From positions 62,001-126,000 of the forward strand of contig NZ_DS560018.1 of the NCBI RefSeq assembly GCF_000154825.1: a stretch of DNA of 64,000 bases, given 5' to 3'. Each line of letters begins with the position of its first letter. Position 1 is the first letter of the stretch. This document shows positions 846-62,814 of the stretch, piece after piece. This DNA is from Anaerofustis stercorihominis DSM 17244. Lineage in GTDB: Bacteria; Bacillota; Clostridia; Eubacteriales; Anaerofustaceae. A program made the translations under genes and the position numbers. A model generated the notes under the pieces. The model saw only the letters and a list, made by a program, of their open reading frames with translations, was not told the origin of the DNA and searched no databases.

Positions 846-983
846 GTACTTTTTGTGACAAAAAAACAAATACAAAAAACTGCATTTTTATTACAGCCTT
901 AAAATACAAATGTTATACTATTATTTTGATATTCTTAAAATTTCTATATATTTTAAATATAACACTTTTGTCACAAAAAGTAC
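846..983. promoter_or_regulatory. Pair of inverted 18-bp sites upstream of the BspA-like gene
   Basis: The 18-mer at 846-863 (GTACTTTTTGTGACAAAA) recurs as its exact reverse complement at 966-983. Each copy holds a 13-bp palindrome, TTTTGT-(G/C)-ACAAAA. The sites are 120 bp apart, 56 bp or more before the BspA-like start at 1039. Such paired operators can bind a dimeric regulator, possibly with looping. The rest of 562-1038 is AT-rich with no gene I can support. The regulator is unknown. Confidence 0.55.
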
Positions 984-1038
984 GATTATTGATATTATTG
1001 TCGAAAACCTTGAAATTGTTAAAAACGGAGGATACAAA

Positions 1039-3378
1039 ATGAAGAACAAAAAATTACTGGCAGTGATATTGAGCGGATTCATGGTGTTTACCGGAATGAC
1101 ACCCATATTTGCCGAAGAACCGAAGGCAGATGAAAACACGAGCAGCAATGCTGTCGCAAGCGAAGAAAACGGGAAGTATGATGAAACTCAAAATAACAAA
1201 GAAGAAAATAACGCCGAAGAAGTAAAAAATGACGAAAAAAGCACGGAAACAAATAAAATCACAGATGAAGACAAGTCACCCGAGAAAACATCAGTAAAGG
1301 TCAAAAAATCCGACGATAACGAAAAAGACAATATAGATTTATCTAAAACCGTTAAGTCTACTTCGAAGACGGTAAAAGCCGTCGTTGAAAATAAAACGGA
1401 TACCGCGACAGGTCTTACCTTCAGTTATGACAGCGATACGAATAAAGCAACCATTACGGGCATAGGGACTTACTCCGCTTCCGCACTTACTATCCCGAGT
1501 AAAGTAAAAGCGGATGATACGGATGAAATGGACGTAGTTGGCATAGGAAACGCCGCTTTTAAAAACAACTCTTCTTTGGAATCGGTTGTTATACCAAAAG
1601 GTATCATATCCATAGATAATGATGCTTTTTACTTATGCAGTAAATTATCTTCCTGTACATTAGAAGAAGGAAGTGCTTTGAAAAGTATTGGGACTAATGC
1701 ATTTATGTACTGCGGCAAATTAACAAGTATTAAAATACCGAAATCGGTGGAAACATTGGGAATCCGTGCTTTTAATTATTGCTCTGGATTAACGTCCGTA
1801 GCTTTTGAAGAAGGCAGTACACTTAATTCTATCGGCAGTTCTTGTTTTTCAGGTACTGGACTTGAAAGTATCATAATACCAAAGAGCGTCAAAACTTTAG
1901 GCTCTTCTGCTTTCAATAGCTGTAAATCTTTAAAGTCATGTACATTTGAGCCGGGTAGTAATTTAAAAAGCATCGAAAGCAGTACATTTAGCGGTTCCGC
2001 ACTTGAAAGTATCATAATACCAAAAAGCATCGAAACCATAGCTTCTTCCGCTTTCAACAAGTGTAAATCTTTAAATTCCTGTACGTTCGAAGATGGGAGC
2101 AATTTAAAAAGTATCGGAAGCCATGCATTCACAGAATGTTCATCACTTACGGAAATCGTAATACCGAAAGGTGTTGACAAGATAGACGACTATACTTTTG
2201 CAGACTGTACATCTTTGAAATCATGTACATTTGAAAAAGGGAATGCTTTAAAAAGTATTGGAAACTACGCTTTCGACAGCGATGAGGTACTTGAAAGTAT
2301 CATAATACCGAAAAGCATCGAAACGATAGGTACCTTTTCTTTTTATGGATGTAAGGCTTTGACGTCTTTGACTTTCGAAAAGGGAAGCGTTCTTAAAAGC
2401 ATAGGAGGTTATGCCTTTAAACAAGCAGCCTTTGAAAAAATCGTGATACCGAAAAGCGTTGAAACTCTAGGAAGTTTCGCATTTAATGAATGTAAAGCGT
2501 TGAAAAGCTGTACATTTGAAGAAGGCAGTGTATTAAAGAGTATAGGAGGATCCTGTTTTAAAGAAGCAGGTATCGAAAGCATAAAGATACCAAAGGGTGT
2601 TGCTTCTATCAATGATTCTGCTTTTTACGGCTGCGATAATTTAACCTCCATAGATACCGAAGATGGAAGTATTTTAGCTACGATAGCCAATAATGCCATA
2701 TATAATGATAAAAATCTTGAGAGTATCAGGCTGACGAGCAGTGACCTTACTTCCGTGGGTAATCTCGGATTGACCGACAGTGCCCCTGTAACCTGTTTAA
2801 AGATCACAGCCCATAGGGGAAGCAAAGATGCACCGAGTGCGATATATCAGCATTATCTAACTTATAAAGACAGTGATAAATGGGAATTTTCCAGCGAAGG
2901 TATATGCCGCAGCGAAACAAAAGTTGAAGTCAAACTGACATGTGTCACTCCGGGAAGCATCACATATAAACCGGGCAAGTGTAAATGCGGTAATGTCTTG
3001 GATACTACCACTACGATAATCACCGAACCGGCAACGGGGATACATACGTTCAATAAAGTTGTAATAGACAGACAAGCGACTTATACAAAGACGGGACTTA
3101 AACATATAGAATGTTCTGTATGCGGTTTAAAACTTGAAAGCTCCGACGAAGTTATCCCAATGCTTGTAAAGGAAGATAACAAAAATAATAATAACGATAA
3201 TAACGGTAATTCAACATCAAGCGGAAGTACAGTTACAAAGACAGGCAGTGATAAGACAGCGGTAAACAATCCTCAGACTTCGGATAATATGAACATGGTT
3301 ATTTATTTATTAATGGGTCTTGTATCCTTGGGAGCAGTAGGTACCATAGGATATAAAATTAAAAAGAAAAATATTTAA
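1039..3378 (+). CDS. BspA-like leucine-rich-repeat surface protein with sorting-signal end
   Basis: A 779-residue exported protein. The start at 1039 follows GGAGG and opens a signal peptide (MKNKKLLAVIL, cleaved near FAEE); the open frame extends upstream but lacks these features. A Glu/Lys/Asn-rich low-complexity linker covers about residues 25-110. About eight tandem 47-48-residue TpLRR/LRR_5 units follow (SIG..F...LESIIIPKS and AFN.CKSLKSCTFE.GS). Two Cys pairs follow (CKCG, CSVCG). The end is a Ser/Thr/Asn-rich spacer, NPQTSDN, a hydrophobic helix and a KIKKKN tail, a sortase-type arrangement with a non-LPXTG motif. BspA family proteins bind host matrix or other bacteria. The gene is monocistronic with its own terminator. 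Attachment by sortase is inferred. Confidence 0.88.
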   Translation: MKNKKLLAVILSGFMVFTGMTPIFAEEPKADENTSSNAVASEENGKYDETQNNKEENNAEEVKNDEKSTETNKITDEDKSPEKTSVKVKKSDDNEKDNIDLSKTVKSTSKTVKAVVENKTDTATGLTFSYDSDTNKATITGIGTYSASALTIPSKVKADDTDEMDVVGIGNAAFKNNSSLESVVIPKGIISIDNDAFYLCSKLSSCTLEEGSALKSIGTNAFMYCGKLTSIKIPKSVETLGIRAFNYCSGLTSVAFEEGSTLNSIGSSCFSGTGLESIIIPKSVKTLGSSAFNSCKSLKSCTFEPGSNLKSIESSTFSGSALESIIIPKSIETIASSAFNKCKSLNSCTFEDGSNLKSIGSHAFTECSSLTEIVIPKGVDKIDDYTFADCTSLKSCTFEKGNALKSIGNYAFDSDEVLESIIIPKSIETIGTFSFYGCKALTSLTFEKGSVLKSIGGYAFKQAAFEKIVIPKSVETLGSFAFNECKALKSCTFEEGSVLKSIGGSCFKEAGIESIKIPKGVASINDSAFYGCDNLTSIDTEDGSILATIANNAIYNDKNLESIRLTSSDLTSVGNLGLTDSAPVTCLKITAHRGSKDAPSAIYQHYLTYKDSDKWEFSSEGICRSETKVEVKLTCVTPGSITYKPGKCKCGNVLDTTTTIITEPATGIHTFNKVVIDRQATYTKTGLKHIECSVCGLKLESSDEVIPMLVKEDNKNNNNDNNGNSTSSGSTVTKTGSDKTAVNNPQTSDNMNMVIYLLMGLVSLGAVGTIGYKIKKKNI
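1549..2745 (+). repeat. Tandem ~143-bp LRR-coding repeats
   Basis: Within the surface gene about eight in-frame units of 47-48 codons repeat the pattern SIG--F---LESI-IPKS-ETLG--AFN-CKSLKSCTFE-GS. Some units are nearly identical at protein level, so recombination between units could change the copy number. Confidence 0.8.
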
Positions 3379-39175: not shown

Positions 39176-39604
39176 ATGGAATGGAAAGAAATGTACCCTA
39201 TCGACAAAATGCCTACGGATGAAGAACTATCGACTTATATCACAAGCCCCCTTTACGAAGATTTATGCAAATATTTAAGCGTAGAGTTCAATGCAAAGAG
39301 AAGCGTAGAGTACAGCAAGTGTGCCGCTATACCCGGATGGAACGTTAAATACAAAAAGGGAATCAAATCACTTTGCGTGGTATACCCCGAAAAAGATATA
39401 CCTAAAGTAATGGTGGTCATCGGCAATAAACTTGAAAACGAAGCGGAAGCTATAATATATACATCAAGCGATTATGTCATGAGCAGATATAAAGAAAGCA
39501 AATCCAACAGCGGACTAGGGACATGGCTGGTTCTTGATTTATTGAATGAAGAAGTATTGAGCGACATCAAAAGGCTAATCGAACTTAAAGCAAAGGCAAA
39601 ATAA
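39176..39604 (+). CDS. DUF3788-family protein
   Basis: 142 residues, cytoplasmic. The central PGWNVKYKKGIKSLCVVYP and the C-terminal W-containing helix fit DUF3788, whose function is unknown. It is monocistronic, with a strong GGAG site and a terminator. The folded leader upstream suggests regulation at translation or transcription. Confidence 0.75.
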   Translation: MEWKEMYPIDKMPTDEELSTYITSPLYEDLCKYLSVEFNAKRSVEYSKCAAIPGWNVKYKKGIKSLCVVYPEKDIPKVMVVIGNKLENEAEAIIYTSSDYVMSRYKESKSNSGLGTWLVLDLLNEEVLSDIKRLIELKAKAK

Positions 39605-39634
39605 AAAGAAAGCAGAAATGCTTTCTTTTTTTCT
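39604..39634 (+). terminator. Terminator after the DUF3788 gene
   Basis: AAAGAAAGCA / TGCTTTCTTT stem, GAAA loop, T-rich tail. Confidence 0.8.
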
Positions 39635-39642
39635 ATACCAAT

Positions 39643-40199
39643 TTAATTTTTCTTTATACTATCTATATCGAGAGAATAGCTTAAAACTTCTCCGGCATCG
39701 GTTATTTGACATTTTACAACCACTTGCTCCCCTATAGATAATTTCTTTATATTCTTTAATTGTTTATCATCGTTGATATAACATTGAACACCGATAATAT
39801 CGTATTCTCCGGCTACGATAGAAATATAATCACCACTTCTATCAATGACATTCAAACGCCCTGTCAATGATACATATTTATCTTTATATTTTTCTTCGGC
39901 ATTTAAAGCATTTTTATTCAAATCTTTTATTATTTTGAAACGCTTAATTTAGTATATGTAATTTTTGGTATTTCTGTTTTTGTATTTGTATCCGCAGTAT
40001 TTGAACTTGTATGATCAGATTTTTCACTGTCACCTCCCCCACCGCTCATCCAAGCACCTAGAATAATAACGACTATTACCGCAATAAACCAAGGACGAAG
40101 ATATATAGACTTTTTGTTCTTTCCACCGAACTTTGCACATACTTTAGCACTCCCTGCAATCTATTCACCGCAGTGAACACAGGTTTTTAATTTCTTTTA
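39643..40199 (-). pseudogene. Decayed zinc-ribbon / membrane / OB-fold protein
   Basis: Reading the minus strand by hand gives KKLKTCVHCGE-stop-IAGSAKVCAKFGGKNKK, a zinc-ribbon start with an in-frame TAG (40161-40163) and one ribbon Cys changed to Phe. Next come a membrane helix (PWFIAVIVVIILGAW) and a Ser/Thr linker. A one-base loss in the A4 run (39933-39936) then shifts into the frame of an OB-fold (tRNA_anti-like) domain (LNKNALNAEEKYKDKYVSLTGRLNVI), ending at 39643. No intact start codon is seen behind the AAGGAG near 40215. Several independent lesions make this a genuine pseudogene. No gene product should be expected beyond perhaps the OB part. Confidence 0.75.
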
Positions 40200-40391
40200 A
40201 TAAATACAACTTCTCCTTTAAATTTAATATCCTCATTTTTTATTTACAGAGACTAAATATTACAAATACTATAAATAAAGTAACAAATGTCTAAAAATAT
40301 AACAATTTATCATTTTATTCAATATATTTAGATATTTTGTATTATAAATTAAAAAAAATAACTATATTTTCTATATATTAAATATACCATA

Positions 40392-40423
40392 AGTGTCGCA
40401 AAATGTATACATTTTGCGACACT
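40392..40423. promoter_or_regulatory. Perfect 32-bp palindrome upstream of the giant surface protein
   Basis: Half site AGTGTCGCAAAATGTA followed by its exact reverse complement, with no spacer and no mismatch. It lies 69 bp before the start at 40492, with a TATAAT at 40471-40476 between. It lacks a terminator-like T tail. A large dimeric or tetrameric regulator site, or a cruciform, is possible. Confidence 0.7.
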
Positions 40424-40491
40424 ATATTAAAGTATTGTATTTTCTATAAATCCGTTTTTAATTTACTTTTTATAATGCTAAGGGGGATAAA

Positions 40492-43400
40492 ATGAACAAA
40501 AAAATTAAAAAATCTTTTGTTGTGTTAATGATTTTATCATTATGCTTTTCTTTTAGTTTTCAAAATATTTCTGCTCAAACATTAGATGAAAACAATAATG
40601 AAAATATATCAAATAAAATAACACAAAGCGAAGACGATGCAGGGAACAACACGGTAACCGGGTTCGAAGATTTAGAGGAAAAGATAATTACTATAAATGA
40701 AAAAACGGGTATCGAGAAATTAAATTTACCCAACAAGTTATATGTTTATTTAAACAATAAAGAAGAAAAGACTTCTTTAGATGTATCATGGGAATGTCCG
40801 GATTACGATAAAAAAGAACTATCTTCATATATTTTCAAACCTCTATTTGAAGATAAATATAAAGTATCGCCGGAACTAAGTAAAGAAGATATCCCAACTA
40901 TAGAGATAAAAATAAATAAAGATATAAAAACAAAAGAAGAAAACATGACAAGAAGTACTTCTTCAAAATACAAAAAAAATGCTTGGTATATTCAATGAAT
41001 TTAAAATAGGCTCATCCGAAACATATAAAACACTTGCCGAAGTAATAACAAAAATACCAAATGATGCGGGAGATATTGTTTTCAATATATGCAGTGATTT
41101 ATACACAGATTATTATAAAGATAACTATATAGAATTACCGAAAGATAAAAATATAACTTCCCTGACAATAAAGACCGATCAACCATCCGTAACTATCGGT
41201 AATGATACATTATATAATACATATTTATTTTTAAACGGCATCAAGCTTACTGTTGACAGCGGTGTGACCATAAGAGGAGATATATACGGAGGAGATAACG
41301 GTAAAAACATAACCGCAGACACTAACATAACAATAAATGAAAATGCTGTTATTGAAAACTGTATATACGGAGGAAGTAAAAATGCAGATCTTACAGGTAA
41401 CAGTTATATAAATATAAAAGGTAAAGTTTCTCGTTACATATTCGGAGGATGTCATTCATATGCCGATAATACCACTCCAAATGCAGAAGCAAATATGTAC
41501 GGTTCGTCATATATAACCGTTGAACCTAAAGGATGCGGATATTGGATATACGGAGGTAATAAAGCCACTTCCGATTACAGTGCAACCCTTGCAACGACTA
41601 TCACCACTACAATGTCCGGTTCTGTAAATATTTCAATGAACGGTATCAATGATGAATTATACGGCGGAAGTTACTCGGGAACAGGTATATCGCCGGGACC
41701 TAAAAATGCAACATGCTCAGACACGATCGAGGGAAGTATCAAAATAATTTACGGAGCGACTTCAAGGGGATATAATGGTGATTATATGGCACTGTACGGA
41801 GGAAGTAATGTAACGGGAACAAACTCTGATACTAATCATTCTTATTCGACGATTAAGGGCAATATAGATATAGAAACCATTGAAGATGATAATGCAGCCA
41901 TAGAACAAGATGATACCCAAGCCTTCAACAGATATTTCGGAGGAGGGTATGCTCAGGGCGTCAATGCGGTAGGAAAAGTTAAAGGAAATGTTACGATAAA
42001 GAGTGCTAAACCTTGCTGGGACAGCAACTTAGGATTAACCGGCGGTGGATATGCTGCAAGCGGAGCATCTATCGATGTAGAAGGTAAAACAAAAATAGAA
42101 ATATTCAAAATAAATAATCAGGATGAGTATTACGAAAATTCTAACTTAACTATCGGCGGAGGGTTATGTCAAAATAGTGATACATCTACATCACTAAATA
42201 CGACATCAACGGTAGGAAGCAGTGAAATCATAATACATGAAGGTGCTACTCTTATTTACGGAAGTACTTGCAACATGAACATAATAGGAAGAGGATATGC
42301 TACTGGGACGAATTGCAACGTAGACGTAAAAGGAAGTACAAGTATAAAATTAGAAAGGGGTATCCAACCTGAACAAGGAATTTGCGGCGGAGGAATGTTG
42401 TATAGTAAATACTGCAAAAATTCATCCGCAAATGTTGGAAGTGTAAAAATGGATATCAGAGATGATTTTATGCTAAATACAAATATCATCGGTGGCGGAT
42501 ACATTTATTCTGCATTAAATGCAAGTGCTAAAGTAAATGACAGGATAGATATAAAATATGGTAAAAACGAGGATTGTTCCTCCGGATCTGTAATCAGCGG
42601 AGGATATATCTCCAATGGATTTGGAGATGCGAGCATCGGAAGCGATAAAAATGATGATTCAATAACAATAAATGCAGGAAACGGGTTAAACGTATATCAA
42701 TTTATCGGAGGAAGTTATGTTCAAAAGAATACTGATGAAAGCAAGATAAAGATTACCGGTAATATAAAAACCAACCTTGAAGGCGGAAGCATTGGATATT
42801 TTCTTGGAGGACATAAACTTTCAACTTCTACAACAAATGCAGAAATAGACGGAGATATTATACATAATATCAGTAACATTACCACTACAAACTTTTTTTA
42901 TCCAGGAGGAACTGTCTATTCCAATAATGCCGATAATCCGGGGAAAATTAATATATCGGGAAATGTTATGACCAAGATTGAAAATTCGACATTGACCAAA
43001 CAAGCTTATACGGGAGGCGGCACTTACACTATTATAGAGAAAAATGCATCAGTTGAATTTAAAGATTGTACGATAAACACCCTTATATGTGCAGTGGGTT
43101 CAGATTATGCATCTATAAAAGGTAGCTCTATTGTTTCATTAACAGGAGCAACGACTTCCAATAATTATATATATTCATACCAAGGAAATGCTACAGCTTC
43201 AGTAGGTAAAGTATTGGTAGAAGCAGGGAATGAAAAAGGGCTCCAAACAAAAGCAAGTATAGTTGGAATATATTCCACAGACCAATCAAATAAAACAGAT
43301 GTCAAAGTAAATAAAAATGCAGAATTAAATCTTACATATACCGGTACAACAACACCTTATCACCTTATGAACGTATATGATATAGATATAGAAAAAGACG

Positions 43401-45074
43401 GAGCTCTAATTACAAAATCAGCACAGAATGCTCCAATCAAAGGAAGTCTTAGCGGAGAAGGAACAATAACAATGCCTGTGGGCGGAAAAATTATCGGAAG
43501 CGGTACACTCGGCGGTAATTTGACGTTAAAAATAACGGGAACACTCAACAAAGACATAGAATTCTTTGAATTTGATAAATCCAGTACCGGAAAAGTAAAC
43601 TTTACAGACCCCGATTATAAATATTATCTAAAAAAAGAAATCGGGAGTGATAAAGCTATATGGGTATTAAAAGAAGGTATAATAATAAATACTACCCCCC
43701 TGATAACGGAACGATAACTCCTAGCGGAAAACAAATGATAGGTAAAGATGAACCAACAGAATTTACTTTTACTCCGGATTACGGTTATCAATTGGACGAT
43801 GTCAAAGTAAATGGTGTTAGTGTCAAAAGTGATTTAAAAAAACATGAAGATTTAAGAAGCAGTATATATACATTAACAACTGACATCAATACATCATTAG
43901 AAGTATCATTCAGACCTTTGGATAAAGACACAATGGAAGATATAATAAATAATCTTCCCAAATTAGAAGGAACGACTAATCCATCAGAGAATGAAACAAA
44001 TAAAATATTTGACGCAAAACTGGATTATGAAGCTCTCAGCGAAGATGAAAAAAATAAAATCGATGAAAAATCCTCCGATAAACTTCACGAAGACTTATTG
44101 AAAGCAACTGAAATCGAAGTGGAATTATCAATCAAAGTAAGTACAAGCGGAAACGATGCAATAAAAATAAGTGACGATCAAAAGAAACGTTTTTTATATA
44201 CATTGAACAAAGATGATATAAAGGAATTAAAAGACAACAATGCACAGTTGCTTAAAATAGTAATAGAAATAAAAGATATCGACAACCCCAAAGACGAAGA
44301 AAAAGAAAAAATCGATGGTGTGTTATCGGACTATACGATAGGAAAGCATTTTGTGGTAGAAGTGATAAAGGAAAAGTATCAAAACAAAGATGATGATACA
44401 CCTAAAACCACAGAAAAAATAACATCAATGCCAAAAGCGTGGATATAACATTTAAAGTACCAAACGAATTAAAACCAAAAGATAATACAGTCTATGCTTA
44501 TGCTATGGTACATACACATCTCGAAAACGGAAATTATACTTCTACATTATTGGAAGATAAAGATACCGTTGATGAAACTGTAACAATAAGCACAAATAAA
44601 TTCTCAACTTATACAATGGTATATAAAGTGAAAGGTACAAAGCCTATAGTATCATATACCGTAAAATTTGATACAAGGGGCGGCAGTTACGTTAAATCAC
44701 AAACAGTAGAAGAAAACGGAGTTATCACGATACCTGATGATCCAACTAAAAAGGGATATATTTTTACGGGCTGGTACACAGATGAAAAATGTACCGATTT
44801 ATGGGACTTTGAAAGAGGGAAAGTTACAAAAGACATCACATTATACGCAGGCTGGGAAAAATCAAAAGACAACGAAAATACCGCACAGTCAGATAATCCC
44901 AATAATCAAAGTTCGGGTAAATCAGACGGAAGAATTATAGAAAACAACAAAAAAAATAATACAATTACTCCAAATACAAGAGATGCAAATAATTTAGATA
45001 TATGGATAGGTTTATCAATTTTCACACTGGCAGGATGCTTAATACTATCCATAAAAGCAAAAAAATATAATTAA
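40492..45074 (+). CDS. Giant cell-surface adhesin-like protein in four frame pieces
   Basis: About 1,527 residues when joined. A signal peptide follows AGGGGG at 40492 (VLMILSLCFSFSFQNISAQ). The bulk (about 41.0-43.7 kb) is repeats of short strands ending in Y/F-G-G (DIYGGDNG, CIYGGSKN, YIFGGCHS), suggesting a beta-helix. InlB-like folds follow: TFTPDYGYQLDDVKVNG, then a Listeria-Bacteroides repeat (VKFDTRGG ... GYIFTGWYTDE ... ITLYAGWE). The tail TPNTRD-helix-KAKKYN looks like a divergent sorting signal. Pieces: 40492-40998, 40979-43717, 43660-44448, 44439-45074. Breaks lie at A8 (40972-40979), C6 (43695-43700) and A4 (44433-44436). Error, phase variation or decay are possible. Confidence 0.8.
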
Positions 45075-61850: not shown

Positions 61851-62798
61851 TCATGGAAGATAAAGAAACCAGTTTAAGTAATTTTAATAAAAAAAGAAAA
61901 TCAAAAGAAAAAGAATTAAGTAATAAAATAGATAAAATGTGTAAAGATTATCCGTCGATAAAAGATATTATTGATGAAATAAACACTTATGGAATTTATG
62001 CATGTATGAATAATGTATCAAGTGAGATTTTTGAAAGAAAAAAATAAAAAGTTAAATAATAAACTAAAAAGGGAACTTAAAACATTAGGATTTAATGAAG
62101 ATTATTTAAGCATTAAATACGACTGCGATAAATGTAAAGACAGCGGTTATGTAAATAATGAAATGTGTACATGCTTAAAAGGATATCTCAAAAAAAGAAA
62201 AAATAAAAACAGCATTTTATTCAGAGACGGAAATTTCGATAATTTTGATGAAAACTTATTTGACAATGACAAAAGCAAATATAAAATTACACCAAGAGAA
62301 AATATAATAAAAAACAAGGAACAATCTCTTAAATTTATTAATACATTCAAAGATGAAGAAAACACTCTAGGATTATTGATGTCGGGTAAAGCAGGCAGCG
62401 GAAAAACCTTTTTGGCAGCAGCTACGGGAAAAATACTGTTAAATAAAGGTTATAGTGTAATTTGCCTTACCGCAAAGGAATTCGAAGATATAATTAAAAG
62501 CTTTAACGATCCCGATTTGGAAAAAAAGAAAAAAGAAATATTGGATGTGGATCTTCTTATTTTAGATGACCTTGGAATCGAAACGCAAAGTGATTATGTA
62601 AATAACGAAATACTTAAATTAGTCGATTATAAAATGACTTACAATAAAAAAATGATAATCACAACCAATTTAACTTTAAATGAAATAAGAGAAAAATATA
62701 AATCAAGAATATATTCAAGAATAATCAGTAATTTTAATTTATTGAAATTTTTTGGTCCGGATTTAAGAGTTACTATCAAAATGATAAAAAATCAGTAA
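61847..62798 (+). CDS. DnaC/DnaI-like helicase loader, split by a frameshift
   Basis: About 317 residues when joined. Zinc-ribbon CDKCKDSGYVNNEMCTC, Walker A SGKAGSGKTF, Walker B LLILDDLGIET and sensor TTNLT. The family loads replicative helicase DnaB onto DNA. First piece 61847-62047 ends ..FERKK; the second resumes as EKNKKLNNKLKREL. Removing one A from A7 at 62038-62044 makes one frame. Because this step is normally essential, a sequence error or slippage is likelier than loss. Confidence 0.87.
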
Positions 62799-62814
62799 AA
62801 TTTTACTGATTTTC
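62787..62814 (+). terminator. Terminator overlapping the dnaC stop
   Basis: AAAATCAGTAAAA / TTTTACTGATTTT perfect inverted repeat spanning the TAA. Confidence 0.7.

Follow-up and report, generated by a model that had tools for sequence, protein, structure and literature searches.

The palindrome and its neighbouring genes

The stretch of DNA analysed here (the window) comprises 64,000 nt of the genome of Anaerofustis stercorihominis DSM 17244 (G000). A perfect palindrome lies ahead of a long surface-protein gene, and the features of this locus are as follows.

nt 40258–40285, no strand: candidate distal partner site, degenerate; 136 bp from the palindrome, centre AT
nt 40381–40409, minus strand: predicted leftward promoter; -35 TATACA (40409–40404) on the palindrome centre, 17-nt spacer, TGG, -10 TATATT (40386–40381)
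nt 40392–40423, no strand: perfect 32-bp palindrome, putative gene-proximal site of crossover type; 28-bp core 40394–40421, central AT 40407–40408, matrix score 19.1
nt 40492–45074, plus strand: surface-protein gene; signal peptide at the start, List_Bact_rpt domain near the end, four reading-frame pieces

As read, the surface gene is not an intact giant gene, being frame-broken both here and in the congener G002, where the ortholog has one break at another place. Two of the three breaks in the window sit at runs of A8 and C6, so that sequencing error may be involved; decay, slippage and sequencing error are all candidates. A small leftward ORF within the conserved block described below was judged by eye and is unsupported. 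Further to the left, nt 39643–40200 (minus strand) carry what appears to be a pseudogene, a tRNA_anti-like (OB-fold) gene interrupted by stops and a frame change.

The palindrome consists of the half site AGTGTCGCAAAATGTA and its exact reverse complement, which abut with zero spacer, as an earlier note on this DNA had described. It is the longest such palindrome in the window, the runner-up being one of 26 bp (nt 62788–62813), where an IstB/DnaA-like ATPase gene ends. The note's view that chance palindromes of this length are very rare is borne out by the expectation from base composition (6.7e-5 per window, 2.4e-3 per genome) and by simulated windows (order-2, n=30), in which none exceeded 26 bp. 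A longer perfect palindrome, of 40 bp, occurs on the same contig (C4:126412), where A- and T-rich ends make it look like a bidirectional terminator. The 32-bp palindrome was correctly placed outside known terminator form: its stem is not followed by the T-run of an intrinsic terminator, and terminator calling was negative. A search of Rfam with nt 39600–41000 gave no match at E up to 1.

The earlier note had also pointed to a TATAAT downstream. The hexamer is present at nt 40471–40476, but with the AGGGGG ribosome site following after only about 5 nt it stands too near to be a likely promoter of the surface gene. The best conserved promoter is instead the leftward TATACA-17-TGG-TATATT that overlaps the palindrome, the -35 of which matches TTGACA at 4/6 positions. 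Judged from its sequence, it is directed away from the surface gene, the predicted OFF state, in both G000 and G002.

Conservation in congeners

The identical 28-mer occurs once in G002, ahead of the orthologous surface gene. The congener G001 gave no match to the 28-mer at up to 3 mismatches and none to the surface protein at E up to 1e-3. Between G000 and G002 identity is 100% over the 28-mer, 83% over the 137 bp on its left and 72% over the 54 bp on its right, where a gap of about 40 nt breaks the alignment. Two other intergenic stretches compared between these genomes showed 54–55% identity, and a third 40%, the alignment there being unreliable. The longest wholly intergenic identical run between the two genomes is nt 40381–40421 (41 nt), bounded on one side by the end of the leftward -10 and on the other by that of the 28-mer. 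The palindrome has stayed identical although the gene that follows has broken frames in both genomes.

Synteny with G002 is lost between about nt 39770 and 40261. At this break, upstream of the locus in G002, are four tRNA genes with a perfect TTGACA-17-TATAAT promoter (L005:4647–5053).

The palindrome might instead act in RNA, folding in the 5' leader of the surface-protein mRNA into a hairpin with an effect on stability or translation. The predicted hairpin is strong (z -4.2), and the single G000/G002 change in the outer stem retains a G-U pair on this strand. Nevertheless, no clearly conserved rightward promoter lies upstream, and related sites (see below) share the dyad as DNA, at varying distance from the gene and with both orientations of the intervening segment, so that this explanation is very improbable.

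A family of related dyad sites

Allowing up to 3 mismatches, the 28-bp core has no second copy in G000. No copy was found in a plasmid search with nt 39600–41000 or in a search of viral contigs with a 24-bp core, and inverted repeats with TGTCGC arms, sought in 41 genomes, gave mostly unrelated matches. On these searches the palindrome could have been the lone operator of a single gene; this was rejected, as searches with a shorter 18-mer and with a dyad pattern revealed a family of sites. When the inner 18-mer was relaxed to 2 mismatches, two more sites appeared in G000, 137 bp apart and ahead of another signal-peptide protein. At up to 3 mismatches there was no excess over the backwards control (8/6/7 matches in G000/G001/G002 vs 10/10/12), but many of these matches sat ahead of signal-peptide genes.

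The palindrome core fits a dyad of the form CAAAANGT-NN-ACNTTTTG. The pattern CAAAANGTNNACNTTTTG was searched with at most 1 mismatch, the same pattern backwards serving as control; having been drawn from the first 18-mer matches, it is post hoc for those. It gave 19 matches in G000 (control 3), 11 in G002 (control 0) and 1 in G001 (control 4), with 0–3 in each of 10 other genomes (controls 0–4). In G001 there is also a solitary perfect 28-bp palindrome, TGTCATAAAAAGTATACTTTTTATGACA (L125:2523–2550), which is related to the dyad family and has no clear partner.

Signal-peptide-like ORFs lie downstream of 16 of the 19 G000 sites (11 of 14 loci), at 53–323 bp from dyad centre to start, and of 7 of the 11 G002 sites (6 of 10 loci), two of the other four being inside ORFs; several of the target genes are paralogs, so that neither loci nor counts are independent. 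By comparison, in 376 kb the same crude rule for signal peptides picks out 64 of the 292 ORFs that are 120 aa or longer. The three remaining G000 sites are C1:505919 (no ORF near), C2:29221 (next to a 123-aa protein) and C5:942818, which adjoins a protein that by eye has the look of a bactofilin.

A scoring matrix was built from 21 training sites, with the palindrome locus and its G002 ortholog left out. The palindrome scores 19.1, toward the lower limit of the training sites (15.1–32.9); on its 176-kb contig it takes third place, tied with the fourth. Its arms are TGTCGC, as against the GTTAC usual for the family.

Pairing, spacing and central bases

Most of the sites occur in pairs. Scanning 21 loci with the matrix gave at least one pair of hits at 17, one locus having three sites, and none at four (L134, L146, L149, L150). 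Pair spacings are 116, 126, 135–137 and 144–148 bp, close to 11–14 helical turns. Two spacings of 21 bp, from matrix hits that overlap (L147, L152), were dropped and those of paralogs and orthologs merged, which left 18; at 10.5 bp per turn these give R 0.83 with a mean phase near zero (Rayleigh p ~4e-6), a value reached in 0 of 100,000 draws from 110–160 bp. R is equally high at 10 and 10.25 bp per turn because the spacings are clustered, and the 144-bp spacing deviates by 0.29 turn; whole-turn spacing is therefore a good reading of these data and not a proof.

The central two bases are reverse-complementary (GT/AC, AC/GT, TT/AA or AT/AT) in 24 of the 25 tabulated pairs, the window pair included. 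Only the G002 ortholog of the window element departs from this, its partner having AA and the palindrome AT. In a scan of 756 kb of G000 six dyad pairs were detected, the window's own pair not among them, and all six had matching centres. A set of 60 column-permuted dyads yielded a mean of 0.55 pairs (maximum 4), and of 0.05 when the centres also had to match (maximum 1). C4:160753/160888, one of the six, was absent from the pattern list and also lies ahead of a signal-peptide protein.

Promoter-like sequences are found at a fixed place within the pairs. At a distance of exactly 24 nt inside the GTNNAC core, a -10 hexamer stands at 19 of the 50 inner ends, 15 of these having TG as well; the corresponding figures for the 50 outer ends are 6 and 0. 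In 7 of the 25 pairs there is no -10 at this place. A 17-nt spacer puts the -35 position on the dyad core, where the match to TTGACA is fair at best. Reading the direction of these predicted promoters gives four pairs as ON (L138, L144, L148, L151), 13 as OFF (L145:4074 among them) and seven as neither.

The window harbors a second pair, ahead of a leucine-rich-repeat surface protein.

nt 833–860, no strand: distal dyad; score 30.3, centre GT
nt 969–996, no strand: proximal dyad; score 12.6, centre AC; 136 bp from the distal dyad
nt 1039–3378, plus strand: BspA-type LRR_5 surface protein; likely start 1039 within ORF 910–3378

The proximal dyad has TGT-TATATT at 24 nt, directed away from the gene. 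From this arrangement we read nt 833–996 as a second invertible-promoter element, better preserved than that of the palindrome and likewise in the OFF direction.

In the pair at the palindrome, a -10 hexamer is found at both ends, with TG only on the one facing outward, away from the gene. The candidate partner at nt 40258–40285 has a score of 2.0 without the core, a value reached by 1.8e-3 of positions in AT-rich DNA; over the 14 allowed spacings, score and spacing together would be expected by chance at about 0.025. The matching cores of this pair are no more than suggestive for the locus. With so degenerate a partner, continued flipping of the window element is doubtful, and its switch may be decayed or locked OFF, which agrees with the broken gene frames in both species.

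On a rival reading, the palindrome is a member of the family whose element no longer flips and is locked OFF, the leftward promoter and any factor that binds the palindrome having been kept. The mismatched centres of the pair in G002, the same orientation in both species and the broken surface gene are consistent with such a relic, as is the poor partner in the window. Set against these are the 41 nt of perfect identity amid a region of 83%, which ask for a present function, and a leftward promoter that has no consistent downstream gene in the two species. A relic is a serious possibility, to which we give somewhat less than even weight.

Opposite orientations of the segments

Among paralogous loci of G000, the segment between the dyads at L138 and L144 (C5, about 161.6 kb and 1199 kb) is opposite to that at L139 and L143 (195 kb and 1038 kb), with 88–92% identity when inverted and 51–55% in the forward direction. 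The gene-side flanks are 83–96% identical in the three of four comparisons made. The orthologous loci L141 (G000) and L151 (G002) show the same relationship, with 83% identity inverted and 46% forward. Other elements lie the same way, such as L135 and L145 (90% forward) and the window element and its G002 ortholog (85% forward). The earlier note was right to suggest that orientation variants be looked for; the window element itself showed none in the comparison with G002.

Serine recombinase genes next to dyad pairs

Genes for Resolvase-family proteins of 204–215 aa (PF00239, E 3e-26 to 5e-28) lie next to dyad pairs in three genera (G000, at C5:36.3 kb; G005; G003), in each case 0–10 bp from one dyad of the pair. 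In G005 and G003 the pairs are spaced at 137 and 157 bp, respectively, with no evident surface gene beside the dyads and no -10 at the fixed place. The nearest solved relatives of the G000 protein are Sin/Tn552 Bin3, the gamma-delta and Tn3 resolvases, and DNA-invertases. None of the three recombinases passes the NCBIfam model of Mpi (NF009949), to which they score 42.7, 38.6 and 39.7 bits against a cut-off of 272.

The G000 gene adjoins a MobQ relaxase gene, and its sites have TCAAAA arms vs ACAAAA, so that the chromosomal set may depend on another enzyme. No other candidate for the GTTAC-type sites emerged from a crude motif search of 756 kb, about a third of G000. The surrounding region (L137; G000:C5, about 33.8–38.9 kb) combines a signal-peptide protein, a dyad pair, the serine recombinase and the adjoining MobQ relaxase, and is a mobile element that may have a surface-protein switch of its own.

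Pairs of operators for a transcription factor that loops the DNA ahead of surface-protein genes would, with no recombination, account for dyads in front of many such genes and for spacings near whole helical turns. They would not account for segments that are oppositely oriented in paralogs and in an ortholog pair, for matching centres, or for recombinase genes abutting pairs, and no regulator gene adjoins the palindrome. We consider operator pairs of this kind improbable.

A proposed invertible promoter ahead of surface-protein genes

Taken together, these comparisons make it highly probable that the palindrome is one of a family of sites at which a DNA invertase, most likely a serine enzyme, carries out crossover, and that the dyad pairs of this family bracket invertible promoters of surface genes. 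Several observations count against this reading: the palindrome has unusual arms and a low score, its partner is weak and in G002 lacks a matching centre, some elements lie the same way round in the loci compared, the palindrome is unchanged ahead of a broken gene, seven pairs lack the -10, the dyads of G005 and G003 have no evident surface gene beside them, and the one invertase gene encountered in G000 belongs to a mobile element. The earlier note was right to see a regulatory site for the surface protein, but its strong operator or cruciform is probably wrong, the evidence favoring a crossover site. In the proposed mechanism, dyad pairs would bracket short promoter segments upstream of surface-protein genes, and recombination at the central two bases, presumably catalyzed by a serine invertase, would flip the segment. 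The promoter would stay whole on flipping and change in direction only, because its -35 position lies on the crossover centre. A promoter pointing toward the gene would be ON and one pointing away OFF, direction setting expression. The palindrome at nt 40392–40423 would be the gene-proximal site of its element, which would itself have flipped at some time in the past.

A more specific proposal, for which we see about an even chance, is a phase-variation system in part of the genus Anaerofustis, with a single serine invertase inverting at least a dozen promoter segments that are unusually short, their whole-turn lengths allowing a stiff short loop to synapse and the -35 being split across the crossover point. 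If true, the set of surface proteins of each cell would be chosen by chance, with most genes OFF at any time, and Clostridia would possess what is known from Bacteroides, a surface switch of the serine-invertase kind that acts on many promoters. The ON and OFF states could then be read from any assembly by a sequence code (site, core, phase and promoter direction), and the near-whole-turn spacing would open the mechanics of recombinase synapsis on very short DNA to testing.

Sites of the hix type have two arms of roughly 12 bp around a 2-bp core, and the dyads share this anatomy with the sites of Hin/Gin-type invertases; the enzymes, too, are of the Resolvase family, with Sin, gamma-delta resolvase and DNA-invertases as solved relatives. 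The classic Hin segment is single and about 1 kb long, whereas the segments found here measure 116–148 bp and occur at many loci. A parallel in organization is Mpi of Bacteroides fragilis, a single serine recombinase that acts on many scattered invertible regions, including those of surface molecules (PMC5903667). The present system would differ from Mpi in its clostridial host, the -35 on the crossover centre, the near-whole-turn spacings and the low scores of its recombinases (38.6–42.7 bits vs 272). In Clostridioides difficile, inversion by RecV likewise controls a surface gene, cwpV, in a clostridium, but RecV is a tyrosine recombinase (PMC5903667), whereas a serine-type enzyme is proposed here.

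A survey of a defined gut community, in which Clostridia-like genomes have a median of 3 invertons, groups invertible elements by shared repeat motif, some groups being mostly from Clostridia (PMC11892184). The shared motif is a likeness to the present family; group 139 of that survey (33 invertons, 32 of them from Clostridia) differs in being linked to a tyrosine-type recombinase. The main text of that paper contains no mention of Anaerofustis, and its supplements may list these elements; a literature search for Anaerofustis with phase variation returned no paper.

Dif-like palindromes of the genus

Palindromes of similar layout lie beside Xer genes in related families, which raised the question of whether the window palindrome is a dif-like site of Xer recombinases. 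GC skew in G000 switches on contig C1, beside an XerS-like gene and another inverted repeat, and not at the palindrome, and the dif-like arms of the genus read CTWCACNAAA; by skew position and arm sequence this candidate was rejected, and we hold it to be the least credible of the explanations considered. The dif-like palindrome L074:23–48 (G000:C1:438538) lies at the skew switch, and in related families such a palindrome is often just beside the Xer gene. Further dif-like palindromes near Xer genes of the genus are at L106:1554 and 12226 and at L107:7849 and 13345.
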